A stretch of DNA of 64,000 nucleotides from Luteimonas rhizosphaerae (GTDB lineage: Bacteria; Pseudomonadota; Gammaproteobacteria; Xanthomonadales; Xanthomonadaceae). A model generated the notes under the pieces. That model was not told the DNA's origin. It ran no database searches and was given only the letters and a program-made list of their open reading frames with translations. The DNA is taken from positions 1 through 64,000 of the forward strand of contig NZ_NRQR01000008.1 of the NCBI RefSeq assembly GCF_002849595.1, read 5' to 3'. The position numbers and the translations under genes were made by a program. Position 1 is the stretch's first letter, and the number at the start of each line of letters is the position of its first letter. Positions 17,631-33,341 of this stretch are shown here, one piece after another.

Positions 17631-18581
17631 ATGGACATCGTCCTCGCCAATCCCCGTGGTTTCTGCGCCGGTGTCGACCGTGCGATCGAGATCGTCAAGC
17701 GCGCCCTCGAGCTGCTCGGTGCGCCGATCTACGTGCGTCACGAAGTCGTGCACAACCGCTTCGTCGTCGAGGACCTGAAGCGCCGCGGCGCGATCTTCGT
17801 CGAGGAACTCGATGAGGTGCCCGACGGCAATACGGTGATCTTCAGCGCGCACGGCGTGTCGCAGGCGGTCCGCGAGGAGGCCACGCGCCGCGGGCTCAAG
17901 GTGTTCGACGCCACGTGCCCGCTGGTGACCAAGGTCCATCTCGAGGTCGCGCGGCATTGCCGGTCCGGGCGCGATGTCGTGCTGATCGGCCATGCCGGCC
18001 ATCCCGAGGTCGAAGGCACGATGGGCCAGTGGCGCGCCGAAGCCGGGCTGGGCTCGATCTACCTGGTCGAGGACGAAGCCGACGTCGCGGCGCTGGTCGT
18101 CAGCCAGCCCGAGAACTTCGCCTACACCACGCAGACCACGCTGTCGGTCGACGACACGCGCAGCGTCATCGCGGCCCTGCGGGCGAAATTTCCCGCGATC
18201 CAGGGGCCGAAGAACGACGACATCTGCTACGCCACGCAGAACCGCCAGGACGCGGTGCGCGATCTCGCGCGCCAGTGCGACCTGATCCTGGTCGTCGGCT
18301 CGCCCAACAGCTCCAATTCCAATCGCTTGCGCGAACTGGCCGAGCGCGACGGGGTCGAGGCGTATCTGATCGACGGTGCAGCCGAGATCGACCCGCGCTG
18401 GGTCGAGGGCCGCCGCCACATCGGCGTGACCGCCGGCGCATCGGCGCCGGACGTGCTGATCCAGGGCGTGCTCGAACGCCTGCGCGAGCTCGGCGCGGCG
18501 GGGATGCGCGAACTCGACGGCGAACCCGAGAACATGGTCTTCGCGCTCCCCCGCGAGCTGCGGGTCCAACTTGTCGATTGA
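17631..18581 (+). CDS. ispH: 4-hydroxy-3-methylbut-2-enyl diphosphate reductase
   Basis: A 316-residue Fe-S enzyme for the last step of the MEP isoprenoid pathway. The cluster cysteines are C12 (RGFCAGV), C96 (DATCPLV) and C199 (DICYATQ), and the substrate-binding histidines H41, H74 and H124 are all present. The gene is intact, but its last 153 bp are duplicated at the far end of the genomic island. The stop codon overlaps the -35 box of the following tRNA promoter. Confidence 0.97.
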
Positions 18582-18606
18582 CCGCGCGCCGCGCGCTCCC
18601 TAGAAT
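18578..18606 (+). promoter_or_regulatory. tRNA-Thr promoter, now reading into the island
   Basis: TTGACC and TAGAAT are separated by 17 bp; the -35 box overlaps the ispH stop codon. With the tRNA cut at nucleotide 43, transcription from here enters the island toward the integrase gene. Confidence 0.7.
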
Positions 18607-18617
18607 TCGCGTCCCAG

Positions 18618-18660
18618 GCCGGAATAGCTCAGTTGGTAGAGCGGCGCATTCGTAATGCGT
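18618..18660 (+). pseudogene. Truncated tRNA-Thr(CGT), 5' half
   Basis: Nucleotides 1-43 of tRNA-Thr: acceptor 5' strand, D arm, anticodon stem and loop with CGT. The variable loop, T arm and acceptor 3' strand are missing; island sequence follows directly. The complete gene is at 33226-33301. Confidence 0.93.
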
Positions 18661-18825
18661 CCAGAGCATTTTCCCAGCGCGCGGTGTGTATCGCCCGGCG
18701 CTTTCCACCAAGGTGGATGTCTTTGATCTGCTTGGAAATTTGCACCGATACGGATAGCTCTCATCCAAACATGGTTCCGAACGGCTCGATAGCTTTTTTG
18801 GCTTATCGACTGCTTAGGAGCCACG

Positions 18826-20004
18826 ATGCGAATTGCCTTCAACAAGCGCACTGCGACCCAGTCGCAGCCGAAGAGCAAGCCTTATGAGATCCGGGACGCC
18901 GTCACTCAAGGGCTGATTCTTCGCATACAGCCCAGTGGTCACAAGGCGTGGATCGTTACCTGGGCGCACGGTAAGCGAAAGACATTGGGATCGGTCGACC
19001 ATCTGAGCTTAGACGACGCCAGGGCCCACGCTCGTCAGGCTCTCTCAGAGGCTACTCAGCAGCGGCTACCGGCCCTCGCTGCAAAGAAGGCACCGGCGTG
19101 CTCGCTTCGCGAGTTTTTGGACGACTACTACGCTCCCTGGGCATCCACCGAGCTGCGCCGAGGTGAGCGATATGTGCTTCGTATCAAAGGGCGCTTTGCA
19201 GGGATGCTGGAGATGCCTATCTCGGACCTTGATGCCAAGCTTCTCAATAGTTGGTGGATGGCTCGGCTCGCAAACGTGACCGGTACGAAGCCTGTAGAGC
19301 GGGTGACAGCTCATCGAGACTTCGCTGCGCTTCGAGCCGCACTCTCGAAGGCGGTTGATTGGAAGCTGTTGGAGACCAACCCGCTACTCGGGCTGCGCCA
19401 GAAGTCGGTGCAGGGGCGAGAGATCGTCAGGTTCCTATCAAGCGCAGAAGAGTCGAGACTCCGGGCAGCAATGGCATCGAGGGATGCTGGGGCTAAGCAA
19501 ACGGATGCGCGTCGCTCTTTCAAAGATCATTTGACGCCGATTGTCGTGCTCGCGATGAACACCGGAATGCGGCGCGGTGAGATCCTCTCGCTGGAATGGG
19601 CGGATATCGACTTCGACGGTCGAACGATCCGTGTGCAGGCGCGGAATGCTAAGAGCGGGAAGCAGCGTCACATACCGTTGAACAACGAAGCCATCGACGT
19701 CCTCCGGGCGTGGAAGACCGAGTCAGTCGGCTCTCCAGGCGTATTTGCTCCGTCTGACATAAAGAAAGGGTGGGGCGCGCTGCTGACTACTGCAGCCATC
19801 ACCAACTTTCGCTTCCACGACCTGCGGCACCACTTCGCAAGTCGTCTGGTGAGCTCGGGCGTGGATCTGAACGTGGTCCGAGAGCTTCTTGGTCACTCAG
19901 ACCTGAAGATGACCTTGCGTTACGCGCACCTGTGCCCCACGCGTCTCGCTTCTGCAGTCGCGACACTCGATGCGGTTAGAAGCGACGTGTCTGCGTCGGT
20001 CTGA
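18826..20004 (+). CDS. Tyrosine recombinase / island integrase
   Basis: A 392-residue phage-type integrase. The N terminus (YEIRDAVTQGLILRIQPSG, TLGSVDHLSLDDARAHA) matches the DUF4102 arm-binding domain found in tRNA-targeting islands. A SAM-like core-binding domain follows, then the catalytic domain: Arg in NTGMRRGEI (~249), HDLRHHFASR (~332-341), LGHSDLKMT and the nucleophile Tyr in LRYAHL (~367). All catalytic residues are present, so it should be active. The ATG at 18826 has TAGGAG upstream. It lies 165 bp from the broken tRNA, as expected for the enzyme that inserted the island. Confidence 0.95.
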   Translation: MRIAFNKRTATQSQPKSKPYEIRDAVTQGLILRIQPSGHKAWIVTWAHGKRKTLGSVDHLSLDDARAHARQALSEATQQRLPALAAKKAPACSLREFLDDYYAPWASTELRRGERYVLRIKGRFAGMLEMPISDLDAKLLNSWWMARLANVTGTKPVERVTAHRDFAALRAALSKAVDWKLLETNPLLGLRQKSVQGREIVRFLSSAEESRLRAAMASRDAGAKQTDARRSFKDHLTPIVVLAMNTGMRRGEILSLEWADIDFDGRTIRVQARNAKSGKQRHIPLNNEAIDVLRAWKTESVGSPGVFAPSDIKKGWGALLTTAAITNFRFHDLRHHFASRLVSSGVDLNVVRELLGHSDLKMTLRYAHLCPTRLASAVATLDAVRSDVSASV

Positions 20005-20085
20005 GACATGAAGTCCTAGATCCAGCGTCGGGGAGTCCATTCCAATAGATCGGGTCTGGAGGTCGTGACGAAGCAACTCCATACA

Positions 20086-20122
20086 TGCGCCGCGCACTGG
20101 TAAGTGCCAGATGCGCGGCGCA
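20086..20122. terminator. Long GC-rich hairpin between convergent integrase and hypothetical gene
   Basis: TGCGCCGCGCACTGG pairs with CCAG-A-TGCGCGGCGCA (one bulged A) around a short loop, giving a 15-bp stem. There is no clear T tract, but the position between convergent genes fits a transcription stop. Confidence 0.55.
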
Positions 20123-20134
20123 AGCAAAGCAGCA

Positions 20135-20488
20135 CTAGCCGACACTCATACGAAACAAGTCTTGGGCTTCTGTAAGTGCTTCCGCCTCACGGGCGTTCAG
20201 CCTCACTACGTCCATGTCGACACGAACATTCAGCGAATCGGACGACTCATCGTAGTGGGCAGAAGCACCTCGCTTCTCGAAGAAATCGACGCACTCGTCA
20301 ATGAAGCCAGTAGGCAGACGCTGGCGCCCGGTACTGTTCTTCAGGTCATCGACTTCGACTGAGTAGTGATAAATCGTGTTGCCGGAGTGTGCTGAGCGGC
20401 TAATCCCCGCCCTCACGAAGGCGCCCATCTGGCCATTCAAGAACTGGCGATCTTCATCACGCATGTGGGTGTCCGCGTATCGCTGCAA
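20135..20488 (-). CDS. Hypothetical protein
   Basis: A protein of up to 117 residues with mixed polarity and normal composition (GNTIYHYSVEVDDL, FIDECVDFFEKRGASAHYD, ALTEAQDLFRM). I recognise no family. The frame opens at a TTG; an ATG eight codons in (20464) is the more natural start, but neither has a clear ribosome binding site. It is convergent with the integrase and downstream of the XRE regulator on the same strand. It could be a small accessory or regulatory protein of the island. Confidence 0.5.
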   Translation of the reverse strand: MQRYADTHMRDEDRQFLNGQMGAFVRAGISRSAHSGNTIYHYSVEVDDLKNSTGRQRLPTGFIDECVDFFEKRGASAHYDESSDSLNVRVDMDVVRLNAREAEALTEAQDLFRMSVG

Positions 20489-20591
20489 GTCAGCAACGGG
20501 ATCATAAGGAGTTCATAAGAATCTTACAAGAGTCAAGCAGCGATCAAGCAAGCGCGGGATTCGCCGTGCCAATTCTTTCTCTGCGCAACCT

Positions 20592-20924
20592 TCAGGTTCG
20601 ATTCGGGTGTGCCCGATCCTCTGCGAGAAGCAGCAGTTCCGTCCGCTGTGCTTCGTCAAGTTGGCTATAAGCCAAGATCAGACGAGCCAGATCGTCGCTG
20701 TCAGCTACGAGGTAGGCGAGCGGGACATCTAGAGCCTCAGCAATCGCTGCAGCAGTGTCGATATCTGGACGCGACGTGAGCTGCTCATACCGATTGATGC
20801 GGGTAGAGCCAGTTGGTTTGCTCAAGCCCAAAAGCGCTCCCAGCGCGCGCTGAGATGTCCCACGCAGTTCACGGGTCGCTTTGAGTCGCGCCGCGAACAT
20901 CGCACTGGCTGTGGGCTTAGGCAA
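20592..20924 (-). CDS. XRE-family transcriptional regulator
   Basis: A 110-residue protein with an N-terminal Cro/CI helix-turn-helix (FAARLKATRELRGTSQRALG, ALLGLSKPTGSTRINRYEQ) and a short C-terminal region including VPLAYLVADSDDLARLIL. The frame opens with TTG; an ATG at residue 9 (20900) is an alternative. It diverges from a membrane zinc-ribbon gene, and a perfect palindrome lies in the shared intergenic region, so it probably represses itself and that neighbour. Confidence 0.85.
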   Translation of the reverse strand: MPKPTASAMFAARLKATRELRGTSQRALGALLGLSKPTGSTRINRYEQLTSRPDIDTAAAIAEALDVPLAYLVADSDDLARLILAYSQLDEAQRTELLLLAEDRAHPNRT

Positions 20925-20982
20925 AGGAGTCTACGATCGAAGCTCGACCCCAATGTTGGCCCTTGGCACCTGTTCATGGCAG

Positions 20983-21001
20983 ATCTACAGTAGATGTAGA
21001 T
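20983..21001. promoter_or_regulatory. Candidate operator of the XRE regulator
   Basis: ATCTACA-GTAGA-TGTAGAT is a perfect inverted repeat with 7-bp arms and a 5-bp spacer, located between the divergent XRE and zinc-ribbon genes. The size fits a dimeric Cro/CI-type site. Binding is inferred. Confidence 0.6.
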
Positions 21002-21042
21002 AGCAGGCTTGCATGGTTGCAAGTCATCCTCAAGGGGGCGGT

Positions 21043-21510
21043 ATGAAAGGCTTCGGTCAACTATTGATAGGCGCGGGACTCGTATGGGTCGTTTTCGCGC
21101 TTCAGCTCGACACGAGCGTTCCAGTGCCTGGTATGGGGCGAGTGCAGAACTTCTCGCTGATGGAGCAACGTCAGACGCAGTTGATGCTTTCGGGCGGCAC
21201 GGTTCTCGTCGGGGTCCTGCTGTTCGGCTTCGGTGCAGTCCGAGAGCGGTACGAGGAGGAAGGCGACGAACGCGTCTGCCCACATTGCGCAGAGCCGATT
21301 CGTTGGGAGGCTAGGTTGTGCAAGCACTGCGGGAAAGGCGTTCCAAATCCTGTAGACGAGGAGACCGGTTTCGACCTAGATGACCTAGCGCCCGAAGCTT
21401 TTGAGGAGCCAATCGATGAGCACGAGGCGGGACGCAGGTACACCTATCGCGAGCTAAGGGAAGCCGCTGAAGAGGGCGAGCGCGCATATGAGCAGGCCGA
21501 GAAACCGTAG
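21043..21510 (+). CDS. Membrane protein with zinc ribbon
   Basis: A 155-residue protein with two N-terminal membrane segments (GFGQLLIGAGLVWVVFAL and MLSGGTVLVGVLLFGFGA) followed by a cytoplasmic zinc ribbon (CPHCAEPI..ARLCKHCGK) and an acidic tail with AAEEGERAYEQAEKP. The ATG at 21043 is chosen because AAGGGGG lies just upstream; an ATG ten codons earlier lacks one. Divergent from the XRE gene and sharing its palindrome. Function unknown. Confidence 0.75.
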   Translation: MKGFGQLLIGAGLVWVVFALQLDTSVPVPGMGRVQNFSLMEQRQTQLMLSGGTVLVGVLLFGFGAVRERYEEEGDERVCPHCAEPIRWEARLCKHCGKGVPNPVDEETGFDLDDLAPEAFEEPIDEHEAGRRYTYRELREAAEEGERAYEQAEKP

Positions 21511-21597
21511 TTAGGGCTTTGGTCCCCTCCGACCCCGTAGCAAAAGCCGGGTACGATGAGTGTCTACCCACTCGCCCGGTCTAAGGGGACTGAAGAT

Positions 21598-23154
21598 ATG
21601 GCTACTAGTGTCAATCTGGACGCTCTGATACCGCGCGAAGATTTTGAGGCGGCTTCGCCCAATGACGATGCATCTAGGCCCCCCGGGATAACAATTCGTG
21701 ACTTAGAGGCTGGGGCTTTCTTTTATCAGGCATTGCGAAAGCCTGATTTTCAGCGTGAATCGTCAGAATGGGACCCGGCCCGCGTCACTGGCCTTATTAA
21801 AACTTTCATCCAAGGTGACTTGATCCCCGCCGTCATTCTTTGGAAACACAGAGAGTATCTTTTTGTTATAGATGGCGCTCACCGGCTTAGCGCGCTAATT
21901 GCGTGGGTACTGGATGACTATGGGGATGGTGAAGTTTCCCAAAAGTATTACGGTCATTCTGTTTCTCAGGACCAGAAGGCACAGGCTGACAAAGTCCGGC
22001 GACTCGTGAATAAAGAGGTGGGCTCCTATGCAGACTTGCAGAAAGCAAACGCAAGTCCTGAACTATTTGGGCCCGATATGATTGGTCGTGCAAGAGCGCT
22101 GGCGAGCAGAACTCTTACACTTCAGTGGGTAGTGGGTAGCTTCACGGTCGCCGAGGATTCATTCATCAGAATTAATCAGCAAGCCGCAAACATAACTCCG
22201 CAAGAGCTTCAGCTGATTCGAGGAAGAAAACGCCCTGACGTTATTGCAGCCAGAGCAATCATGCGGCGCGGAAGTGGTCATCTGAGTTCCTCACGTTTCT
22301 CTGATGAAAATCTTAAGCAAATCAAGGAAATTTCACAGGCGGTTTTTAATCTGCTGTTTGAGCCAGAAATGACATACCCGGTTAAGTCTCTAAATCTTCC
22401 CGTCGGAGGGGGCGCTTACTCTGGAACCGCTTTGAAGATGGTCCACGACTTTATTGTCTTGAGTGTGGGCCAAATCAAGGATGAGGCCGACGATGTAGGT
22501 GCTCGTACTATTGAGATTTTGAAGAGGACGCGTAGGTCGGCCGAGCTGATTTGTAGCAACGTGGCCGGATCAATGGGACTGCATCCTGCTATTTATTTCT
22601 ATAGCTGGACTGGTAAGCAGCAGCCCATCCTTTTTCTTACGGTCGCTGACATGATCTTAGAGCACGAGCGGAACAAAACGCTCTCGCTATTCTTAAATCG
22701 GCGCAAGGCTTTCGAAGATTTTATAATAGGTAATAGAGCACTTCTTAACCAGATTGTTCGTAAATTTGGAACTAAAGACTCTGGAAAGAATCATTTGAAA
22801 GCTTTCTATCAGGAGGTTTTCAAGGCTATTGATGCAGGCGTGACTGGCGATGCCATTTCTGAGCAAGTCATTCGCCACAAAGCATTTACATACTTGCAAC
22901 CTTCCGAAAGCCCTTACTCCGGCGTCTCGGCCGGACGCTACGACGCCGCAGTCAAGTCTGGGTTGGTAATTGGCGAGCTCATCCCAGGCGCCCTTCGCTG
23001 TGGCATCTGTGGGGGGCTGGTGCCTTCTCAAGCGATTTCAATTGATCACAGACAGGAAATTTCCGCAGGTGGCGACTCAAAGATATCTAATCTCCAAGTT
23101 GCTCATCCGCGCTGCAACAACGAGAAGACGCCGCCGTTGAGCTCAATTTTCTGA
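21598..23154 (+). CDS. ParB/DUF262-like domain fused to HNH endonuclease
   Basis: A 518-residue protein. Residues ~35-110 resemble DUF262/ParB-like NTPase-nuclease domains: DFQRESSEWDPARVTGLI, GDLIPAVILW and the DGxHR signature in VIDGAHRLSAL, with a later FIRINQQAANITPQEL typical of DUF262. The C terminus has an HNH motif with zinc cysteines (CGICGGL, ISIDHRQEISAGGDSKISNL, HPRCNNEKTP). DUF262 plus an HNH-type nuclease is the design of GmrSD and SspE restriction factors, so a single-gene anti-phage nuclease is likely. AAGGGG lies upstream of the ATG at 21598. Markedly AT-rich compared with the chromosome, a sign of transfer. Confidence 0.72.
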   Translation: MATSVNLDALIPREDFEAASPNDDASRPPGITIRDLEAGAFFYQALRKPDFQRESSEWDPARVTGLIKTFIQGDLIPAVILWKHREYLFVIDGAHRLSALIAWVLDDYGDGEVSQKYYGHSVSQDQKAQADKVRRLVNKEVGSYADLQKANASPELFGPDMIGRARALASRTLTLQWVVGSFTVAEDSFIRINQQAANITPQELQLIRGRKRPDVIAARAIMRRGSGHLSSSRFSDENLKQIKEISQAVFNLLFEPEMTYPVKSLNLPVGGGAYSGTALKMVHDFIVLSVGQIKDEADDVGARTIEILKRTRRSAELICSNVAGSMGLHPAIYFYSWTGKQQPILFLTVADMILEHERNKTLSLFLNRRKAFEDFIIGNRALLNQIVRKFGTKDSGKNHLKAFYQEVFKAIDAGVTGDAISEQVIRHKAFTYLQPSESPYSGVSAGRYDAAVKSGLVIGELIPGALRCGICGGLVPSQAISIDHRQEISAGGDSKISNLQVAHPRCNNEKTPPLSSIF

Positions 23155-23251
23155 CTTAAGCCATCGGCATCATGACTCGCTTCCATTATAGGCAAGTTGC
23201 GCCAGCGCTCATCGGTAGCGAGTTGAGCCGCAGCTTGCGCGCGTGACTTGA

Positions 23252-23446
23252 GCTCAAGCTGCCGCTGCCATCGCCGACGAACCCGAGCCCGATGTGGCCG
23301 CCGCTGGCCACGGCCGGACCATCATCAACATCAGGCCCGAGCACCTCGATGCTTGGCTCAACCCAGACCCAAACGATCTTGCCGCGCTCTACGCGATCTT
23401 CGACGATAAACGGCACCCCTGCTACGAGTACCGGGAAGCGGCCTAA
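23252..23446 (+). pseudogene. Remnant of an SOS response-associated peptidase (SRAP/YedK) gene, 3' end
   Basis: Sixty-four codons after an in-frame TGA encode AAAIADEPEPDVAAAG, then RTIINIRPEHLDAWLNPDP and NDLAALYAIFDDK to a TAA. This resembles the C-terminal tail of SRAP/HMCES-family proteins, which crosslink to abasic sites. No start or catalytic N-terminal Cys (MCGR) is found upstream, so only the tail survives. The assignment is from memory of the family pattern. Confidence 0.5.
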
Positions 23447-23667
23447 TGCTAGGGAACCGCAACTCAAACGCATGACCTTGGCCCCCCAAGTGCGATGCAG
23501 TCTTCTCGGGAGTTGCGATGAGTAGGCAGCGGCTCAGGCTCGCGAGAGCGCAAAAAGCGTTGTGTTATGAGCCGATTCGAGCAGCTATCATCTAAGTATG
23601 AAGCGGTACCGGGAGGTCCTCGACATAGACGGCGCGAACTCTACGCAGTTCCTAAGCGGCGCCTAGG

Positions 23668-24111
23668 TTACGGTTTAGTCAGCTCAGGCCACTTGTGCGA
23701 GTCAAGGGCTTTAGTAAGCATCATAAGCCGGTGCCGGAACGCGTCATCACCCTTCCCAGCAACGGCAAAAAGCGTGGCACTTAAGCCTTCGCAGTCGTCT
23801 ACAGCCTCTGCGAGCGCGGTCAAGCCAGCTTCCGTGATCCTGATTCGAGTGTATCGATGGTCAAAAGTGTCCTGTCTGGACTCGCGTTGGATCAGTCCAT
23901 CCTTTTCCAGCCCCTTCACCACCGTTGACACTGTAGAGGATGACGCTCTCAAGACCTTCGCCAAGTCTCTTGGTAGGGCGTTATCGCGAGTTTGGAGATG
24001 GGCGAGGACAAGATAGCGACGAACGTCACGCGTGCTGCGCTTGAGCCGCTTTCGAAGGTGTTGGTCGAATGCGCAACATAGCGCGATTAGCTCAGCTAGT
24101 TCGTCGGTCAT
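23668..24111 (-). CDS. MarR-family transcriptional regulator
   Basis: A 147-residue winged-helix regulator: a helical dimerisation start (ALCCAFDQHLRKRLKRST), DNA-binding part (LVLAHLQTRDNALPRDLAK, SSSTVSTVVKGLEKDGLIQR) and wing (DHRYTRIRITEAG). It diverges from the 344-residue unknown gene, and a perfect 12-bp inverted repeat sits in between, so it is probably autoregulated and controls that neighbour. Confidence 0.85.
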   Translation of the reverse strand: MTDELAELIALCCAFDQHLRKRLKRSTRDVRRYLVLAHLQTRDNALPRDLAKVLRASSSTVSTVVKGLEKDGLIQRESRQDTFDHRYTRIRITEAGLTALAEAVDDCEGLSATLFAVAGKGDDAFRHRLMMLTKALDSHKWPELTKP

Positions 24112-24130
24112 GCGGGCATTCTAGCGATTG

Positions 24131-24174
24131 ATTTCATGGGACCTATCTCGGCGTCGAGGTACGTCCCATGAAAT
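24131..24174. promoter_or_regulatory. Perfect 12-bp inverted repeat, candidate MarR operator
   Basis: ATTTCATGGGAC and GTCCCATGAAAT are exact inverses separated by 20 bp. They lie 19 bp from the MarR start and about 50 bp from the divergent gene, a fitting position for a shared operator. The arms could also form an RNA hairpin in the leader of the rightward gene. Confidence 0.6.
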
Positions 24175-24225
24175 GCCTCGGTATGGTCCTGAAGGGCACT
24201 TGCGCCCTTATAGGAGGAACCAGCC

Positions 24226-25260: not shown

Positions 25261-25380
25261 GTCTGGAGCAGAGGTGTCACGACTCCCTTTAAAGCTAAGA
25301 ACAAAATCTTTAAGAGCTTTACTGCTATATGGATTGCCGGATTTTATTTGCAGGATGCAGGTAGGTTTGAGGTGAATTAA

Positions 25381-25553
25381 GGTGGGCCTTCGGTGTCTCG
25401 GGCCTACGGCCCTCCCCCCCGACGGTCCACCTGCGCGCCTTCGGCGCGAAAAAGCTTTCCCCGGCAGTTGAACTTAAGCTGCTTAAGAACGCTGATCTCG
25501 CTCGGCCTTCGGCCTCCCTTGACCAGCGTTGTGGACGCCGCTTCGCGTCGTCC
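25381..25553. ncRNA. Array of five hairpins, candidate structured RNA or DNA element
   Basis: The gene-free stretch holds five consecutive foldable units: 25381-25431 (GGTGGGCC with GGTCCACC, enclosing GGGCC-TAC-GGCCC); 25434-25448 (CGCGCC-TTC-GGCGCG); 25473-25487 (CTTAAG-CTG-CTTAAG); 25488-25530 (AACGCTG with CAGCGTT enclosing GGCC-TTC-GGCC); 25533-25553 (GGACG-C-CGC-TTC-GCG-T-CGTCC). Three share a TTC triloop. It lies between the unknown gene at 24226 and the broken HNH gene. Function and strand are unknown; no coding frame in it is convincing. Confidence 0.5.
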
Positions 25554-25708
25554 AGCATATTTTTCCCACAACTTCGTTCTAAACAGCAGCGGAGAAGGCG
25601 AAGCCCTTTTGGAGGGACAGGCCATTCCGGTCTCCAAGTCATAGCAAGTTAGAGTCAGGGCTAGAACAGCGGTATCTTCCTCTGTCGCCTCACTACAAGG
25701 ATGTATCC

Positions 25709-26633
25709 ATGGCAAATCAAGAGGGCTCTAAGTGGAGCAGCCTTGAGCTTGCAGCAGCAGTTGCGGCGTACAGGAAGATGGAAGAGCTTGCAGCAAACGG
25801 TGAGCCCTTCAAAAAAACCGGTTTTTACAAGGCTTTGGAAGCTCGCTTTGGAAGGGAGGCTGGCGCTTTCGAGCGACGAATGCAGAACATTTCCGCAGTG
25901 CTGGAAAGCATGGGTGAGCCGTGGCTCAAGGGCCTAGCGCCAGCCCGGAACGTAGGGCCGTCGGCTGACGGTCAATTGCGCAAGATCCTGAGGCCAGGCG
26001 GGCTTCCTCCGTATCACGCCAAGCTGCCGGCAATGCGTGCCTGGCTCATTGAAGTTGCACGTTCAGCCGAATCTCCGCGCAGGCTTGGGGGCACTTGGTC
26101 ACGAGTCGAGGCAGCGGGGAGAGCCGATCTTGACCGCGCTCGTTGTGAGCAAGGGCACTGGGAAATGCTCTGCAGGCTTAGAGCGAGAGTTCGGGATATC
26201 GGATGACGAAGCCGAGCGCCAGAAGCTGTACCGCTTCTGGAAGGATGTAGAGGCTGACCGACACTCGCAGCCCGACACCGAGCCTGCTGACGCAACATTG
26301 GAGGAGCGCGCGAGCAAGTTCGCACGCCAGGCTGTGAGGCCCCAGCAGCAGGCATTTCGTAAGAGCGTCTACATCGATTTCAATGAGGCATGCGCGATCA
26401 GCGGGTGCAGCATACGAAGCACGCTGGACGCCGCGCATCTCACGGGTCGCAGTTGGCGCAAGGGGCACAACAAGGCGAGCGACGGTTTGCTACTCCGCAA
26501 AGACCTGCACGCGCTGTACGACGCGGGCCTGCTAGGCGTCGACAAGGTAGGGCGTGTGACGATTTCAGACAGCGCGCGGGATCACTACGATAGCTACCAC
26601 GGAGTGACGCTTGCTAAGCGTCGAAGTAAGTAG
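25709..26633 (+). pseudogene. HNH endonuclease gene broken by a +1 frameshift
   Basis: The first frame (MANQEGSKWSSLELAAAVAA to about VARSAESPRRLG) has the N-terminal domain common to HNH restriction-type endonucleases (YRKMEELAANG, ERRMQNISAVLESMGEPW). The second frame continues with ALGHESRQRGEPILTALVV, KCSAGLEREFG and an HNH-like end (CAISGCSIRSTLDAAHL, DGLLLRKDLHALYDAGL, HGVTLAKRRSK). The frames meet at the run of five G at 26087-26091. Removing one G joins them into 924 nt, a 307-residue protein, with natural sequence across the joint. AAGGA precedes the ATG. It may be a true inactivation or a base-calling error. Confidence 0.82.
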
Positions 26634-26863
26634 CGTGCGGCAGGCCCAGAGGCTGGCTGAATGCGTGTTTGGGCGCTGTCTGAGGGGGTGGGAGCTAGCC
26701 CTGTAGCGCTCGATAGCTGATGCGTCCCAAATCGCTTCCTAGCGCGTCTGAGGCGTAAGACTTGACCGGCTTACGAGGCACTTACCGCGCAAAGAGGGGC
26801 AAACGCATGCGCTTGTAAGCGATTGATCTGAAAGGGACTGATGTAAGCGTGCGTCATCTAGAT
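26634..26863. other. Intergenic region upstream of the PD-(D/E)XK-like gene
   Basis: No gene is supported. The region contains several short near-repeats of CTTAC/GTAAG and leads into the palindrome at 26864. It probably carries the promoter of the downstream nuclease gene, but I could not pick a clear -35/-10. Confidence 0.4.
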
Positions 26864-26884
26864 CGTGGCATCAGATATGCCACG
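26864..26884. promoter_or_regulatory. Palindrome CGTGGCAT-N5-ATGCCACG, copy 1
   Basis: Perfect 8-bp arms with spacer CAGAT, 80 bp before the start of the PD-(D/E)XK-like gene. The same arms recur at 29747-29767 upstream of the DUF2971 gene. Dimeric-protein operator is the likely role. Confidence 0.65.
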
Positions 26885-26964
26885 CTCGTCGACAGGGCTT
26901 TGGGAAGGCCTAGCGAGTCTGTGGCACTAGCGCCGTGCAAAGGACAAAATCTAAGGGGGAAGGG

Positions 26965-28398
26965 ATGCGCGTTTCAACGCACTACAAGCTGAAGAGAAAG
27001 CAGGCGGAATTGGATTTCGTGGATGTTCCTCTTGATACAGACCTTCCCGTCTTTGTCGAGCCTACGGCGATACGCGCTTTAGAAACGCCTTGGTCGAGCC
27101 ATTGCGTGGCCTTGCTGCAAAGCTTCTTTAAGACTGTGCTGGACGCCGTAAAGCGAGGCGACAAAGCGATGGCTGTTGCTCTGCTTTCGTCCCTTAATGA
27201 GCGAAATGACTTCCACTTGGGTTACTCGTCCGGTCGTTCGCGTGGACATGCATTTGGTGCGGGCTCCGCTGGATCAGTTTGGAACTCACTGCTCACAAGT
27301 AAGGCCGCCAAGTCGGGTGTTCTTTCTGATCTCGAAGACACCTCTCTCCTAATCGAGGGCGTGGGAGCCGACATGATCTCGGATGCTGTGTGCAACATAA
27401 TTCGAGGGCCGCTCATCCAATACACTCAGGATATGTGCCGCTACTACGGTATTCCCATGGTTTCTGGCGTAGCATCGGGACCATGCTGGGATGCCCATTC
27501 CAAGAATTGGGTCGCCACCCACGTCGAGCTGCCATTGCCCAAAGGAGAAGTTCTGTTGCTCGTTCCCAAGTCTATAGTGCGTTTGGCAGGCGCATACGAC
27601 CCGGGTAAGTATTATCGACACTACCTTTTACCAGAGCTTCAGAAGCAGCATTTAGCAAGTGGTTCGAGCCTGGTAGAGGTTCTAAAAAGCAAGAAGAGAC
27701 GCGTTACCAAGAAGGCGCTTACTAATTACTATGGCGCGGGAAAGGACGCGATCGCCAGTTTGACCGAGTCGAATCCCGATGTGCTCGAAAAATACAAAAT
27801 TGACAAAGAGCAGGATCCTACTCCGCCCATTAGCAACAGCTATCTAGCAAGCCTCGAGAACTCCACAAACCCTTCACTATCTGATCTTTTAGAGAAGGTG
27901 CTGGAAGTTCCAGCAGGGAAGCCCGGAGCGACCCAGTACGAGCGGGCGATGGAAGGCCTACTTAGTGCCCTTTTCTATCCATCATTGATTCATCCGGTGA
28001 GCCAGTCCGGTATCAATAATCGACGGAAGATCATCGACATAAGATATAGCAATGCAGCCAAGGAAGGATTCTTCGCATGGCTATCTAAGCACTATCCATC
28101 GCCATATGTGTTCGTTGAGTGCAAAAACTATACTGAAGACGTGAAAAATCCAGAACTCGATCAGTTGTCAGGCAGGTTTTCGCCCTCAAGAGGTCAGTTT
28201 GGGATACTAATCTGTAGGTCTGTCAGCGACCGGAGTAAGATCAATTTGATGTGTCGGGACACCGCGAAGGATGGGCGCGGTTACATGATTGTCTTAGACG
28301 ACGCTGACCTTAAAGCGCTAGTGGCGGCGGGTCCGGCAATGCATCACGACGCGACGAGAACGATCCTAAATGACAGGTTCGATGCGCTTGTGAACTAG
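26965..28398 (+). CDS. PD-(D/E)XK-like nuclease, putative defence protein
   Basis: A 477-residue protein. The C-terminal third carries a restriction-like core: Asp in RRKIIDIRYSN, then E-x-K in YVFVECKNYTED, followed by LDQLSGRFSPSRGQFGILIC, which matches the Mrr-like PD-(D/E)XK fold. The N-terminal two thirds (TDLPVFVEPTAIRAL, NDFHLGYSSGRSRGHAFGAG, LLIEGVGADMISDAVCN) are conserved-looking but unknown to me. The ATG at 26965 has GGGGGAAGGG directly upstream; the GTG ten codons earlier is less likely. Two small membrane-protein genes follow on the same strand and may form a unit with it. Confidence 0.7.
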   Translation: MRVSTHYKLKRKQAELDFVDVPLDTDLPVFVEPTAIRALETPWSSHCVALLQSFFKTVLDAVKRGDKAMAVALLSSLNERNDFHLGYSSGRSRGHAFGAGSAGSVWNSLLTSKAAKSGVLSDLEDTSLLIEGVGADMISDAVCNIIRGPLIQYTQDMCRYYGIPMVSGVASGPCWDAHSKNWVATHVELPLPKGEVLLLVPKSIVRLAGAYDPGKYYRHYLLPELQKQHLASGSSLVEVLKSKKRRVTKKALTNYYGAGKDAIASLTESNPDVLEKYKIDKEQDPTPPISNSYLASLENSTNPSLSDLLEKVLEVPAGKPGATQYERAMEGLLSALFYPSLIHPVSQSGINNRRKIIDIRYSNAAKEGFFAWLSKHYPSPYVFVECKNYTEDVKNPELDQLSGRFSPSRGQFGILICRSVSDRSKINLMCRDTAKDGRGYMIVLDDADLKALVAAGPAMHHDATRTILNDRFDALVN

Positions 28399-28460
28399 CA
28401 GGCTGATCTACGCACGATGTTCTTCATAAATTCATCTAAGCTTTTCCTCGGTGATTAAAT

Positions 28461-28988
28461 ATGTATACAGCTTTTGAGCTTGCCAACATTTTGTTCGGGA
28501 TGATCGGGGTGTCGGTGCTATCGATGATCGGCTTGCTTTTTGCGCGATTTTCGCGGGAAAGTCGGGCTCAATCTTTCTGGGCGAGGAGGATGGAAACAGC
28601 CAGGGCACTGGCGCTACCCTTGGACCAGCGGCAAGCCTTGCGGGTGGCGCTTATGTCCGATGAAATGCCAGTCGCAAGAAGGGATGAAGTTCAGCACTTG
28701 CAACTAGTGGCAAATGGGTTGGAGGTTGCTGAGCACATAGCACTTGGAATAAATAACGGGGTCTATGAGCGAGACTTGGCTATAAAGTTATACGGTTCAA
28801 TCTTAGTCCGCGTGTTTTTCGCGAACCTAGAGCGGGTCTACGCTAGCCGGGAGGCGGAAAGCGACTTGAATAAACTCTACGAATCAATTTCGTTCTACGA
28901 GCTCGAGAGATTTGTCAGGTCTCTTGATAAGGAGGAGTCCGGTGAGCTTGGCGCTGGATTCCCGGCGGTGGGGGCGCGAAATGACTAA
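28461..28988 (+). CDS. DUF4760-like membrane protein
   Basis: A 175-residue protein with one N-terminal membrane segment (ANILFGMIGVSVLSMIGLLF) and a helical cytoplasmic part (VANGLEVAEHIALGINNGVY, ILVRVFFANLERVYASREA) that resembles DUF4760 proteins. Function unknown. Its last 8 nt overlap the next gene, indicating coupled translation. Confidence 0.65.
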   Translation: MYTAFELANILFGMIGVSVLSMIGLLFARFSRESRAQSFWARRMETARALALPLDQRQALRVALMSDEMPVARRDEVQHLQLVANGLEVAEHIALGINNGVYERDLAIKLYGSILVRVFFANLERVYASREAESDLNKLYESISFYELERFVRSLDKEESGELGAGFPAVGARND

Positions 28989-29451
28989 TCCTAGAAATGC
29001 ATTCAAGGCCTACGAAGAGCACGCCCAGAAGCAAGGATTAAGTCCGGTTGCTATGCATTTGTCATATGCGTTTCACGAAGAGCAATTGCGTGAAATTATC
29101 GACAGGGAGCTAGCAAAGGGCGTGCAGTTTGATCAGGTCGACGTTGCGGGTCATGACAGCACTCTCACGTCTAGGCTCAATATCGAGAACAATTTTCGGC
29201 GAGCGAAGGAACTCATCGATAAGGAGATGTCCAGTTTTGTCACCGCTGCGACGAAAAAGGGTGGACTTAAGGGTTTCGCTTTAGCGGTTCTTAGTAGTGT
29301 TGTCGCTGCATTTTTATATTCCATAGTTGTTTTTATAATCGTTATCACCTCTCAGGACCAAGTGAGGCAGTTCCTCGCGGGAGTGGACGGTGCATCAGTT
29401 CAAAGCGGGCAGAGCGAGCGCGCGAGGATTGAGGAGCAACCTAGTGAGTAG
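28981..29451 (+). CDS. Small membrane-anchored protein, coupled to the DUF4760-like gene
   Basis: A 156-residue protein with a soluble, charged N-terminal part (FKAYEEHAQKQG, FRRAKELIDKEMSSF) and one C-terminal membrane segment (LAVLSSVVAAFLYSIVVFII) followed by a short polar tail. No family recognised. The ATG at 28981 overlaps the end of the upstream gene in another frame, so the pair probably acts together at the membrane, perhaps as the effector or sensor side of a defence unit. Confidence 0.65.
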   Translation: MTNPRNAFKAYEEHAQKQGLSPVAMHLSYAFHEEQLREIIDRELAKGVQFDQVDVAGHDSTLTSRLNIENNFRRAKELIDKEMSSFVTAATKKGGLKGFALAVLSSVVAAFLYSIVVFIIVITSQDQVRQFLAGVDGASVQSGQSERARIEEQPSE

Positions 29452-29746
29452 CCATCTGCTAATCGAGTCGAGGTGCTTTCATGCTGAGCTCTTGCCGCCA
29501 GTCTCCTAGCGCTTGACCCTATGAGTGCTTTCGCGACGCTTGCTGGAGAGCTAGGACCAAGTATCCAAAGTTCAAAGCGGATAAGAAGCTTTCCGTGGAC
29601 CGGGTGCGCGAATGAGTTCCGCTCAAGCGCTTGCTTGACTTAAGCTTCGCGTGACTTACAGCGCACTTATTCAAGCCATAGGGTCTTTGCTGCCGCGTTT
29701 AACTTACTGATTCTTGGGCAAGTACTGCGAGCTAGGGCTCAGAGGG
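29452..29746. other. Intergenic region upstream of the DUF2971 gene
   Basis: No convincing gene. Stop codons are frequent in all frames. It separates the membrane-protein pair from the DUF2971 gene and leads into the second copy of the GTGGCAT palindrome. Confidence 0.45.
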
Positions 29747-29767
29747 CGTGGCATCATGTATGCCACG
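29747..29767. promoter_or_regulatory. Palindrome CGTGGCAT-N5-ATGCCACG, copy 2
   Basis: Arms identical to those at 26864-26884, spacer CATGT, 148 bp before the DUF2971 gene. The repeated architecture in front of two different cargo genes points to a common regulator. Confidence 0.65.
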
Positions 29768-29914
29768 ATCAATGCTCGATGCGGTCGCGTGGAATCTGCA
29801 TCTTCATTGGATGGAGCCGCGTACAGGTTGCCCCGAGGTGAGAAGCGGAACCGATCGACGTAGAGCGGACCAGCGCCTGCATGCAGCGTGAGCAGTGGAT
29901 AAGGAAAACTGTAG

Positions 29915-30772
29915 ATGTTGATTGAGCGTGAATACCGAGCTACTCAAGATGAACTGCTGTACCACTATTGTTCTCCGGAAACCTTTCTGGCGATATGTAG
30001 CAGCAAGACATTGCGATTATCAGATATTTTTTCAATGAATGATTTTCTGGAAATGCATTGGGGATATGCAAGGTGGGCGCATGTTGCAACGAAGAGAGCC
30101 GAGAACTCTGAGGCGAAGCTTGTCGAGTCAATTGATCACGTTGTGTCATCTTCGACGTTTAATGTCCTCCCCCTAGCGGCGTGCTTTTCTTTGGGAGGTG
30201 ACATGTTAAGCCAGTGGCGCGCCTATGCTCAAAATGGATTGGGTTTTTCGCTTGGTTTCAAGGCAGATTCGCTTTGTCAGATGGCAGCTAGGCCATTGCG
30301 GGTGCTTTATGACCAGGAGAAACAAGAGCGAGAGATTGAAGATTTTATTGCGACGATGGAGAAGGTGGCCGAGGCTGAAGGTCACGAAAGTGACGACTTC
30401 TTTGAATTTTGCACTTGCTTTGCTTGCGACTTGGCTGCATTGAAAAATCCGTCGTTCTCTGAAGAGCAGGAAGTGCGCCTAATTCACTTGGTTAATTTTG
30501 TTAGAAGTAACGATTCGATTAAGATTCAGAGCTATGGGGGGACATCGTTTGGACACGAAGCTCCGCCCCTCCCAATTGGATTCAGCATGAGGGGTTCGGT
30601 TCCAGTGCCCCACATCGATATGAGTTTCTTAGATTCTGAAGGGAATCATCCTCTTGCTCGCGTGATTCTAGGGCCGAAAAACGAGGCGTTGGCCTCCGCA
30701 ATATCAGTATTCTTAGAAACTGTTGGTTTAGGCGGTGTCGAGGTGCTGAAGTCGCAGTCGTCTTATAGGTAA
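29915..30772 (+). CDS. DUF2971 protein
   Basis: A 285-residue protein matching DUF2971: YHYCSPETFLAICSSKTLRL, then FSMNDFLEM, and CFSLGGDMLSQWRAYAQNG, which corresponds to the conserved S..xDxxxxWxxYxxxxxG signature. Proteins of this family are often found in accessory and defence-rich regions; their biochemical activity is not settled. AT-rich and unlike the flanking chromosome. The second GTGGCAT palindrome lies upstream. Confidence 0.8.
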   Translation: MLIEREYRATQDELLYHYCSPETFLAICSSKTLRLSDIFSMNDFLEMHWGYARWAHVATKRAENSEAKLVESIDHVVSSSTFNVLPLAACFSLGGDMLSQWRAYAQNGLGFSLGFKADSLCQMAARPLRVLYDQEKQEREIEDFIATMEKVAEAEGHESDDFFEFCTCFACDLAALKNPSFSEEQEVRLIHLVNFVRSNDSIKIQSYGGTSFGHEAPPLPIGFSMRGSVPVPHIDMSFLDSEGNHPLARVILGPKNEALASAISVFLETVGLGGVEVLKSQSSYR

Positions 30773-30840
30773 TCTCCTGCAAGGGCCCTGCGAGGTGATG
30801 CATATTATTCAAATTACTAAAGCAATCAATAGTAGCTGCA

Positions 30841-31524
30841 ATGGCCGAGATTAAAGATTGGCAGATTCAGTCAGCTTGGTGGGCCTCCGGCATCTTCGCT
30901 ACTGGGGCAGTCTGGTATTTTCTATCGAGAGGTGATTTCTTCGCTGCGGGTGTGGGTGCGGCGGCGGCGCTATGCCTCGCGGCGGTCGCGATCGTTCTTC
31001 ACGTTTGGAAGGATCGTCAGGCTGCATCTACATTAGCCGGCTTGAGCGACGATACCTCCGAGTCTTATGTCCAACGCTACAGGGATGAGCCTAGTCACAT
31101 CCGCTTCATTAGGCATCTTCCTCGAGCGAGAAGAGTGGCCAAGGGAGAGGCTCAAGAGGGATGGGATACGGGCGTGACACTTGATATGCGCGAAGCCAGC
31201 TACACGTACATCGAGTTTCTCAAGTCGGTCTGGCTTAGGTTGGCAGAGTTCTACCCCGCTAATCATTTTGAGGGCGGCAGTCCTAGTCAATACATCTCTG
31301 ACCAAATCCAGCGGCAATACAGGTACCACAGCGCTCGGCATGAGCCAGATGGCAGTGGAACCGGCGGGACGATTGTTGGTGTCTTGACAGCTGGCGATGT
31401 CGCTGACGATCTAGAGCAGATGATTGAGGAAGCTGTGGAGAGCGTGTTTGGATATGACGAAAATTTTGATACGGGTGGATGGCTCGCGGACTGGCGCAAC
31501 GACTCGCTAGAAGAGGGCTCCTGA
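30841..31524 (+). CDS. Small two-helix membrane protein
   Basis: A 227-residue protein with two N-terminal membrane segments (AWWASGIFATGAVWYFL and AAALCLAAVAIVLHVW) and a soluble C-terminal part (YVQRYRDEPSHIRFIRHLPR, WLRLAEFYPANHFEGG, acidic end). No family recognised. It follows the DUF2971 gene and its last 18 nt overlap the end of the convergent KAP NTPase gene. Association with that NTPase is possible. Confidence 0.65.
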   Translation: MAEIKDWQIQSAWWASGIFATGAVWYFLSRGDFFAAGVGAAAALCLAAVAIVLHVWKDRQAASTLAGLSDDTSESYVQRYRDEPSHIRFIRHLPRARRVAKGEAQEGWDTGVTLDMREASYTYIEFLKSVWLRLAEFYPANHFEGGSPSQYISDQIQRQYRYHSARHEPDGSGTGGTIVGVLTAGDVADDLEQMIEEAVESVFGYDENFDTGGWLADWRNDSLEEGS

Positions 31525-32892
31525 AGCCCTCGCTAAATGAGTGACGATAGTTGACACGCGCGAGCGCCTAGTGAAGGACTGCTCCCAAAGCAATTCCGAG
31601 AAAAGCGCAGCTCCTTGTTCTCGATCTTCCTCTCGGAGGACATCGTGAGCGTTACTTTCCCAACATGCCAGAATGAACGAGATCATTTTCAACACGGGCA
31701 CGTCGTCCTCGGTATAGGTCGAGATCGACTTCTGTAGGAAGCCCTTCACACCCGCTTCGTCAATTGGTGCCCGGTACTGGTCTCTAACCAAGAAGCGTCC
31801 AACCAAGATAAATGTGAGCAGTGGTACGCTTAGCGGCGTTGTTTGCTCCGAGGACCATAGGAACTTGAGCCGAATAACCACTTGCTGCCAGTCCCGCATC
31901 GTCAAAGCTTCAGAGTGCTGCTCCAGTAGGCTCTTGAAGAACTCACGCCCTCTTCTCTCGATCGGTGCCTGAGCCGTCTGACTAACTCCGAGCTGCTCGA
32001 AGATTGCTTCTCTCACAAGGTCAGTGGGGGCTGGAGGCAGTGGAAGTCGAACGTCAATAAGTCTGCGGAAGTAGCTATCAGCGTCCAGCTCCGGGCTATA
32101 GGCCGCTCTTGCGGACTGAGCGAGCACGTTCCAGTCGTAGGACAGAATGAAAACGATCCCTGGGGTCTCAAAGTAGTGCTTCATACGCTCGATGAGCGAG
32201 ATGGTGTAGTCCGGCCTGCAACGGTCTAAATCATCAACGATGACGATGACTCTTGGCGAGCGGTCGCGATCCTTACCTTTTGCCGTGCGAACCAGTTCTG
32301 CCAGGCTTCTATGAAAGGCGTCGCCCTCGTCATCGATGTCGATCTCTTCTTTAACTGCATGCTCTGCTACAGCGCCCGCGACTTCTCCTAAGGTCGACGC
32401 AGCTATCGCATCTCCGCCGGACGCAACTACGGCTGCTGTCGTGATGCCCTTTGCCGCAGGACTGAACGTGATGCGAGCTGCCGAAGAGATGCGTTTATAC
32501 AGAGCCGCAGCGCTCTCCAGAAGCCGTTCTCGCGCTTCTTCATACGCCGGCACGTCTTCGCGTTCGAGCGCATCCTTCAGAAGGTCGGTCGCTTGGACTA
32601 CAGCTTTGGTGAAGCTGATCAGAGGGTCGCGTTTAGCCTCAGCTTTCCAAGCGTCCAGGACGACCACGGCCCAGTCGGGGGCGCTATGCCGAAGATCCTT
32701 CTCAAACATTTCGAGGAAGTAGCTTTTCCCCGTTCCCCACTGACCTTCCAGGCCGATTACCCATGAGTCGCTCTCGGCGCTCGCTATCGCAGAGCGAAGC
32801 AGTGCGGCGAAGTCTTTTCTACTGAGTTGATCGGCGGCGAATGGATCATCCGACGTGATCGCGCGATTGGTGGGGCGGTACAGAGTCGCCAT
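31507..32892 (-). CDS. KAP-family P-loop NTPase
   Basis: A 461-residue NTPase of the KAP group. Walker A is GQWGTGKS (residues ~50-57) and Walker B is VIVIVDDLDRC; a hydrophobic insert (AAKGITTAAVVASGGDAIAA) lies between them, where KAP proteins usually carry membrane helices. YTISLIERMKHYFETPGIVF and FILSYDWNVLAQS are typical downstream motifs. KAP NTPases act at membranes and are part of several defence systems. The ATG at 32892 opens MATLYRPTNRAITSDDPF; an upstream start 15 codons earlier is possible. Convergent with the small membrane protein. Confidence 0.85.
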   Translation of the reverse strand: MATLYRPTNRAITSDDPFAADQLSRKDFAALLRSAIASAESDSWVIGLEGQWGTGKSYFLEMFEKDLRHSAPDWAVVVLDAWKAEAKRDPLISFTKAVVQATDLLKDALEREDVPAYEEARERLLESAAALYKRISSAARITFSPAAKGITTAAVVASGGDAIAASTLGEVAGAVAEHAVKEEIDIDDEGDAFHRSLAELVRTAKGKDRDRSPRVIVIVDDLDRCRPDYTISLIERMKHYFETPGIVFILSYDWNVLAQSARAAYSPELDADSYFRRLIDVRLPLPPAPTDLVREAIFEQLGVSQTAQAPIERRGREFFKSLLEQHSEALTMRDWQQVVIRLKFLWSSEQTTPLSVPLLTFILVGRFLVRDQYRAPIDEAGVKGFLQKSISTYTEDDVPVLKMISFILACWESNAHDVLREEDREQGAALFSELLWEQSFTRRSRVSTIVTHLARASGALF

Positions 32893-33036
32893 CGGCTGTC
32901 CAGCATCCAGGTGGTCCTCGTTGCACATTACAAGCACTGAGAGCTACTGAGCAGAGGCAGGCTGAGCCGAGAGGAGTGTCATGATCAGGCCTATGACTTG
33001 ATTTAAGAGGCTCGGCTTATCAGGCACTTACGCTTC

Positions 33037-33189
33037 ACCGCCGGCGCATCGGCGCCGGACGTGCTGATCCAGGGCGTGCTCGAACGCCTGCGCGAGCTCG
33101 GCGCGGCGGGGATGCGCGAACTCGACGGCGAACCCGAGAACATGGTCTTCGCGCTGCCCCGCGAGCTGCGGGTCCAACTTGTCGATTGA
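33037..33189 (+). pseudogene. 3' fragment of ispH
   Basis: The last 51 codons of ispH including the TGA, with one C-to-G change at 33156 relative to the intact gene. There is no start or upstream part; it is a passenger of the island boundary. Confidence 0.93.
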
Positions 33190-33214
33190 CCGCGCGCCGC
33201 GCGCTCCCTAGAAT
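33186..33214 (+). promoter_or_regulatory. Promoter of the intact tRNA-Thr
   Basis: TTGACC and TAGAAT are 17 bp apart and end 11 bp before the tRNA. The -35 box overlaps the stop codon of the ispH fragment, which explains why a functional copy needs the ispH end. Confidence 0.8.
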
Positions 33215-33225
33215 TCGCGTCCCAG

Positions 33226-33301
33226 GCCGGAATAGCTCAGTTGGTAGAGCGGCGCATTCGTAATGCGTAGGTCGTAGGTTCGATTCCTATTTCCGGCACC
33301 A
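33226..33301 (+). tRNA. tRNA-Thr(CGT)
   Basis: A 76-nt tRNA with encoded CCA. The acceptor pairs GCCGGAA/TTCCGGC, the D arm is GCTC/GAGC, the anticodon stem GCGCA/TGCGT encloses TTCGTAA with anticodon CGT, and the T arm is GTAGG/CCTAT. Nucleotides 1-43 belong to the island-borne repeat and the rest is the chromosomal 3' half. Confidence 0.97.
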
Positions 33302-33312
33302 GCGTCACGAGC

Positions 33313-33341
33313 ACGGGCAGCCCATCGGGTTGCCCGTTTTC
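33313..33341 (+). terminator. Terminator after tRNA-Thr
   Basis: ACGGGCAGCCC and GGGTTGCCCGT form an 11-bp stem (one G-T pair) with an ATC loop, followed by TTTT. Confidence 0.9.

Follow-up and report, generated by a model that had tools for sequence, protein, structure and literature searches.

A tRNA-Thr island of Luteimonas rhizosphaerae that probably supplies the promoter and 5' half of its target gene

Transfer RNA (tRNA) genes are classic landing sites for mobile elements, and in the usual account the 3' end of the gene is restored upon integration and the host promoter is retained. Here, we describe a 14.6-kb island in a tRNA-Thr(CGT) gene of Luteimonas rhizosphaerae, in which the promoter and the 5' half of the gene appear to be supplied by the element. 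The window analysed is a stretch of 64,000 nucleotides (nt) (RefSeq assembly GCF_002849595.1, contig NZ_NRQR01000008.1, positions 1 to 64,000, forward strand), to which all unlabelled coordinates refer. Islands with a 5' fragment are a known minority, since Table 1 of the Islander paper counts 3760 islands with a 3' fragment and 159 with a 5' fragment among 3919 (PMC4383910), and several 5'-distal cases are cited elsewhere (PMC6563490). The initial annotation, made from the sequence alone, had called the design rare; it does belong to a minority class, but one that had already been described. As presented in the Islander paper, that class resembles the window in its tyrosine integrase and in a displaced 5' fragment upstream of the intact tRNA, and the word 'promoter' is absent from the main text of the paper (PMC4383910). 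According to one review, all but a very few rebuilt bacterial tRNA genes retain the promoter they started with, and pTN3-like archaeal elements have their attachment site attB in the 5' half of the tRNA, the rebuilt gene being read from the element promoter (PMC8371274). In the account given there, the promoter of pTN3-like elements is that of the integrase, whose gene is split, whereas the window holds a copied host tRNA promoter and a whole integrase gene, a single open frame lying outside the core. Phages with tRNA-dependent lysogeny, as described in another source, likewise integrate in tRNA genes through a short core; their tRNA is not rebuilt and a separate tRNA is carried, whereas the tRNA of the window appears rebuilt (PMC10865867). 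Such lysogeny was considered for the island and rejected, as the sole intact tRNA-Thr in the window is the rebuilt one at the junction. Islands of Stenotrophomonas (L038, L040, L047, L054) share with the window the integrase subfamily, the tRNA-Thr(CGT) target and a probable anticodon-loop crossover, but they restore the 3' half, whereas the window island restores the 5' half. Searches of open-licence papers turned up no account of a tRNA island that restores the 5' half and has captured a promoter or gene tail, which is weak evidence of absence, and none of a half-switch between sister integrases at one tRNA, of repeated uptake of upstream gene tails along with the promoter, or of traces of promoter replacement.

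The island is bounded by a repeat that contains part of its target. A repeat search over positions 14000-38000 returned a single direct-repeat family (18417-18660 and 33025-33268, 98% identical over 244 nt), within which an ungapped block of 232 nt (18429-18660 and 33037-33268) differs only at 18548, a C, versus 33156, a G; the initial annotation had reported this repeat with its one mismatch, and the same coordinates were recovered. The block consists of the last 153 nt of ispH including the stop codon, a leader of 36 nt, and nt 1-43 of tRNA-Thr. The left copy, on the forward strand like all the block features described here, is the end of the intact resident ispH (17631..18581, an open reading frame (ORF) of 316 amino acids in a flank conserved among relatives of the genus) followed by the displaced tRNA half (18618..18660). 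The right, element-borne copy holds an ispH tail without a start, a promoter, and the first 43 nt of the only intact tRNA-Thr(CGT) that ARAGORN detects in the window (33226..33301), which would be a hybrid of an element 5' half and a host 3' half. The broken half therefore lies on the left and the intact gene on the right, as had been annotated; the two have the same orientation at opposite island ends, and the fragment stands upstream of the intact gene as in the Islander 5' class. A sigma-70-type match, TTGACC-17-TAGAAT, with 10 of the 12 consensus letters, precedes both tRNA starts (shuffled sequences average 0.1 matches). The left one (18578..18606) is the original tRNA promoter, now stranded and facing the integrase gene, while the right one (33186..33214) is predicted to come from the element and to drive the rebuilt tRNA; a terminator-like stem-loop (33313..33337, + strand) follows the tRNA on the host side. 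The ispH stop codon (18579-18581) lies inside the left -35 box, from which it had been argued that a working copy must include the end of ispH; the overlap is real, but the promoter needs just the last few nucleotides of the gene. The 189 nt upstream of the tRNA in the window exceed the need of the promoter by about 150 nt, and since a Pseudoxanthomonas relative (G052) shares only 48 nt upstream, most of the 153-nt ispH stretch is probably passenger DNA. A tyrosine integrase of 392 amino acids is encoded at the left end of the island (18826..20004, + strand; Pfam Phage_integrase 8.6e-31 and Arm-DNA-bind_3 6.3e-10; PHROG integrase 2.8e-65), starting 165 nt after the stranded tRNA half. The GC content is 0.49-0.60 inside the island, compared with mostly 0.68-0.73 outside.

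Comparison of the ispH-tRNA-Thr locus among relatives, which the initial annotation had proposed as a check, indicates that the site is normally empty. A query of the ispH end and tRNA matched in 52 of 52 genomes of the genus, the match in G043 being a weak one to a tRNA only, and there is a single junction of the ispH end with the tRNA at each of the 29 loci for which both flanks were compared. The alignment runs unbroken from the block into the right flank over 1369 nt in L003, L008, L010, L013 and L015, and over 1115 nt in L016, and ispH ends less than 120 nt from the tRNA at each of the 26 loci that have the tRNA start pattern (3 of the 29 are without it). At one locus, L006 (G017), a 3' fragment lies roughly 1 kb downstream, and the site there counts as empty with respect to this type of island alone. 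In the list of matches for the 52 genomes, from which weak ones were cut off, a second ispH-end/tRNA copy occurs only in G023, on another contig of a genome rated 5% contaminated. The single mismatch had been read as a sign of capture from a close relative, and this reading is not sustained: the right copy carries the base of 28 of the 29 relatives (G; one relative has T), and it is the resident ispH that holds the derived base, through a synonymous change from CTG to CTC. The mismatch thus fits a local copy followed by mutation as well as it fits arrival from a conspecific, and an attempt to date the insertion by it was abandoned because these histories are not separated. Since identity over the block falls to 90% in the nearest other species, the block would derive from this species or one very near, unless gene conversion has evened the copies. 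In G040, G007, G048 and others of the genus, the ispH end matches one strand and the promoter with its tRNA the other, some 0.1 kb away; not every member of the genus therefore has the -35 box overlapping the ispH stop. In two genus relatives, G036 and G017, the intact gene is followed downstream by 3' fragments of this tRNA (L198:4681-4729, L199:4268-4323), and in the 10 and 7 kb examined at L198 and L199 there was no match to five query integrases.

The same design recurs with related integrases, of which a contig scan gave 79 loci. The two nearest, L032 (G052) and L078 (G053), belong to Pseudoxanthomonas and are 63-65% identical to that of the window. Each has a tRNA-Thr 5' half before the integrase gene (nt 1-38, 4.6 kb ahead, in L032; nt 1-41, 3.5 kb ahead, in L078) and an intact tRNA-Thr about 20 kb (L032) or 26 kb (L078) beyond the half, which agrees with the earlier proposal that the promoter and tRNA 5' half are brought by the element. 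The integrases of the four Stenotrophomonas islands, 53-54% identical and at the same tRNA, go with a 3' design, in which the intact tRNA is on the integrase side, the far end holding a 3' fragment that begins at nt 32. Across the window and related islands, the 5' fragments reach nt 38-43 and the 3' fragments mostly start at nt 28-33; the segment they share is thus the 7-nt anticodon loop TTCGTAA (nt 32-38), in which we infer the crossover to lie, giving a predicted attL at 18649..18655 and attR at 33257..33263 (both + strand). In a careful tree of 27 rows chosen by hand, the window, L032 and L078 form a clade (support 100/99) that is joined with the Stenotrophomonas 3'-design clade (96/97). 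A quick tree held 69 rows, 11 short or broken integrase rows of 80 having been dropped. The restored half changes at least twice on the careful tree, and also on the quick tree with the best-supported labels; on the first tree there are three changes if L034, L035 and L044 are labelled as 5' design and two without them. The label of L035 (G064) comes from a half and an intact gene on different contigs, that of L044 from a half adjoining the integrase gene whose intact partner was not found there, and the 3' labels of L041, L042 and L050 from fragments on contigs other than that of the intact gene. A case at another tRNA is L045 of Stenotrophomonas sp. Iso1 (G069), in which a related integrase lies upstream of an intact tRNA-Ala(CGC) (617426-617501) and the 5' half (nt 1-38, 602404-602441) is 15 kb away. 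Its two copies have 187 nt upstream in common, apart from 4 mismatches; the stretch takes in the tail of a gene whose product matches Pfam Beta-lactamase (serine hydrolase type), and the end of an upstream host gene therefore seems to have been captured at this tRNA too.

The length of sequence carried past the tRNA differs between the two designs. Among 11 half/intact pairs of the 5' design, the ungapped stretch shared upstream of nt 1 ranges from -1 to 189 nt and is at least 27 nt in nine: it measures 189 nt in the window, 187 in G069, 86 in G091, 79 in G094 (with 15 mismatches), 48 in G052, 35 in G053, 32 and 32 for the two halves of G099, 27 in G104, 4 in G105 and -1 in G064. At 20 loci of the 3' design, entered by hand from among the 79 as those with both copies available, sharing stops between -7 and 41 nt beyond the tRNA, and at 17 of them at 10 nt or less. 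The Mann-Whitney p for 5' versus 3' is 0.0004 with the first four pairs and 0.001 with all 11, the rows being related and not independent; longer sharing in the 5' design is what the need for a promoter predicts. An early generalisation from the first four pairs, that a promoter copy is always shared, fails in 2 of the 11 pairs (G105 and G064), in which the intact tRNA still has a -10-like box as judged by eye. At two loci with related integrases, each island lying between two complete tRNA copies (L033:8084-8160 / 18585-18661 and L037:9773-9848 / 17947-18022), the upstream identity stops 1-4 nt before the tRNA, which leaves the downstream tRNA copy without a shared promoter.

The ends of these elements also share a short motif. 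GGCTTA is the top over-represented hexamer in 23 hand-picked element-end segments, being present in 16, whereas 2000 draws of random interior segments averaged 2.7 of 23 and never exceeded 9; it is often paired, 11 nt apart. The pair pattern has three matches in the window, at 18800, 33014 and 26768. The two outer ones, beside the integrase gene (18800..18816, + strand) and at the opposite end, six nt short of the captured block (33014..33030, + strand), are putative arm-type sites to which the integrase may bind. If this is right, host DNA between arm and core would leave the site usable. The inner pair (26768-26784) is perhaps the end of an older element.

Promoters at the same tRNA gene appear to have been exchanged in Pseudoxanthomonas. 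The element promoter of G053 is unlike its own stranded copy and is identical, for 53 nt before the tRNA and without gaps, to the left copy of G052; this left copy of G052 also has an arm pair, and is probably itself an element end. Halves of tRNA-Thr from the 5' side occur in 7 of 38 Pseudoxanthomonas genomes at E<=1e-10 (G052, G053, G091, G094, G099, G104 and G105). Among 30 intact loci, one each from 30 of the 38 genomes, an arm pair lies upstream in 12, none of which has ispH within 120 nt, and ispH is adjacent in 9, none of which has the pair, the remaining 9 having neither (Fisher p 0.004, a count slightly weakened because two of these genomes contributed to the derivation of the motif); in the genus of the window, 0 of 26 loci have the pair. 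We take the arm-pair loci to be sites at which the rebuilt tRNA may still be on an element promoter after the rest of the element has decayed. A wider proposal, which we offer tentatively and consider a little short of an even chance, is that this integrase family can switch the restored half by virtue of a near-symmetric anticodon-loop crossover, that its 5' forms act as promoter-carrying cassettes, every insertion displacing the resident promoter and putting that of the element in its place, and that Pseudoxanthomonas and similar lineages now often read tRNA-Thr(CGT) from a promoter of a mobile element, the site also holding stacked elements and one-gene cassettes with no integrase close by.

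Other arrangements were observed at the same tRNA of this genus. Two mini-elements of 0.93 and 0.97 kb in G091 and G104 (L183:1268-1305 and 300-375; L177:18098-18135 and 19070-19145) have a tRNA-Thr 5' half at one end, an intact tRNA at the other, and one ORF each, the two ORFs being related as judged by eye; no related integrase was present within the approximately 20 kb examined, and they look like non-autonomous one-gene cassettes. G099 (L179, L180, L181) has a tandem tRNA-Thr array with two 5' halves, a full integrase gene and a cut one (residues 1-187 only), and further bare CATTCGTAA cores, with a terminator-like repeat after each. In G105, a 9.3-kb insert (L184:9641-18994) has its 5' half directly after ispH and unlike sequence before the intact tRNA; a related integrase was not found in this insert, whose large ORFs resemble what we take to be Zorya defence genes.

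Our preferred reading, to which we assign a probability of about 0.86, is that the island is a 5'-restoring element carrying a host-derived promoter and tRNA 5' half; it draws on the repeat, the junction tRNA, the empty sites, the designs of relatives, and the differing promoters at the site in other genomes. The tyrosine integrase would recombine in the 7-nt anticodon loop of tRNA-Thr(CGT), with TTCGTAA as the predicted exact crossover, and the element would hold the promoter and 5' half at its integrase-distal end, between the core and the putative arm site at which the integrase presumably binds. Integration would split the host tRNA and leave the host promoter and 5' half stranded before the integrase gene, and a working tRNA would be rebuilt at the far end, where the element promoter, presumably active, and 5' half join the host 3' half. 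The ispH nucleotides would be passengers picked up when the promoter was captured, possibly through illegitimate recombination close inside the arm site, whether excision went wrong or an occupied chromosome was joined with an empty one. Several observations weigh against this reading. The inner arm-like pair lies within the island with no ATTCGTAA core nearby, interiors hold 6 arm-motif matches in 76.5 kb, and the motif was derived partly from the same ends on which it is counted. At L034 the integrase gene adjoins an intact tRNA-Ala, and no 5' half was found in the genome or in the 29 kb searched closely. The L033 and L037 islands show a third arrangement, with a complete tRNA copy on either side. 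The upstream sequences of G105 and G064 are unlike, so that a shared promoter copy is not universal, and the Mann-Whitney p becomes 0.04 when these two pairs alone are added to the first four. In addition, the right copy of the block is near-identical to the resident one, and later gene conversion could mask a different origin.

The near-identity of the two copies also bears on whether the block travelled at all. The island may instead have left the tRNA broken when it first integrated, local duplication or sister-chromosome recombination in this lineage having later supplied the ispH tail, promoter and 5' half; we regard this as possible though doubtful. Such an origin in place would account for a difference of 1 in 232 nt from the resident sequence when the closest other species is 90% identical, and for the common base kept in the right copy, and capture in place is a natural first step for any such element; yet this design also accompanies the two nearest integrases, which are from another genus, and the G053 promoter, unlike its own stranded copy, suggests that blocks travel within the clade. 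Homology of 232 nt with one mismatch is ample for recombination by RecA, through which the island might have entered with the integrase incidental, and the initial annotation had noted that RecA could drive excision in the same way. We consider entry by RecA very improbable and rejected it as the principal explanation, because the block ends at the anticodon stem, and related elements, which have much less sequence in common with the host, show fragment ends converging on the anticodon loop. A wrong assembly join at one repeat is hardly credible: a repeat of 232 nt can be longer than a short read, but the copies differ by one base, GC steps occur near both junctions, and other genomes share the design, and the one-base difference and the shared design led us to discard this reading. 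A side hypothesis is that the promoter block also serves the element, as a constitutive promoter before the integrase gene both when integrated (the host copy) and when excised (the element copy). The short distance from the stranded half to the integrase gene in the window speaks for it, as do the negative results of a strict terminator search after the core in the window and G064, and the integrase gene of ICEKp1 is reported to be read from a tRNA promoter when integrated (PMC13023037). That search found a stem-loop in 5 of 7 segments (G052, G053 twice, L044 and G069), and the window stretch after the core has a weak 5-pair stem only. In L032 and L078, however, the integrase gene is 3.5-4.6 kb off behind a terminator, so this would not be the general purpose of the design, and we judge the idea unlikely.

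The rest of the island encodes a regulator and cargo. A helix-turn-helix (HTH) regulator resembling phage repressors or control proteins (20592..20924, - strand; HTH_3 3.3e-11; PADLOC Control_protein 3.2e-16) is followed by a GmrSD_N and HNH protein (21556..23154, + strand; Pfam), an HNH nuclease (26037..26633, + strand; HNH_2 1.2e-8; PADLOC HNH 4.9e-11), the candidate defence protein PDC-M36A (26935..28398, + strand; PADLOC 1.1e-41), a DUF2971 protein (29915..30772, + strand; 6.5e-11, with a weak PADLOC match to PDC-S31), and a KAP P-loop NTPase, candidate defence protein PDC-S20 (31507..32937, - strand; KAP_NTPase 8.1e-38; PADLOC 1.3e-61). The cargo looks like a set of defence candidates. 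The integrase itself was found in none of the other genomes among 52 of the genus at E<=1e-60, and in none but its own among 101 genomes searched as relatives at E<=1e-90. Its matches in viral contigs were at three loci, the best 41% identical, those among plasmids were two Vibrio records (35%, E<=1e-40), and that among phages was a single record (40.5%); an exact pattern resembling the attachment site of an excised element (attP), with promoter and tRNA 5' half, had no match in the viral contigs.

Although 5'-fragment islands are known, the arrangement described here is, as far as these sequence comparisons indicate, a recurring variant and not an oddity of one genome. Sister integrases with opposite solutions at one tRNA offer a natural experiment on how the restored half is changed. 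The copied blocks would record the acquisition of adjacent host DNA by an element, in a manner akin to that of a specialised transducing phage, and they suggest a route by which a housekeeping RNA gene may come to be placed on the promoter of a mobile element.

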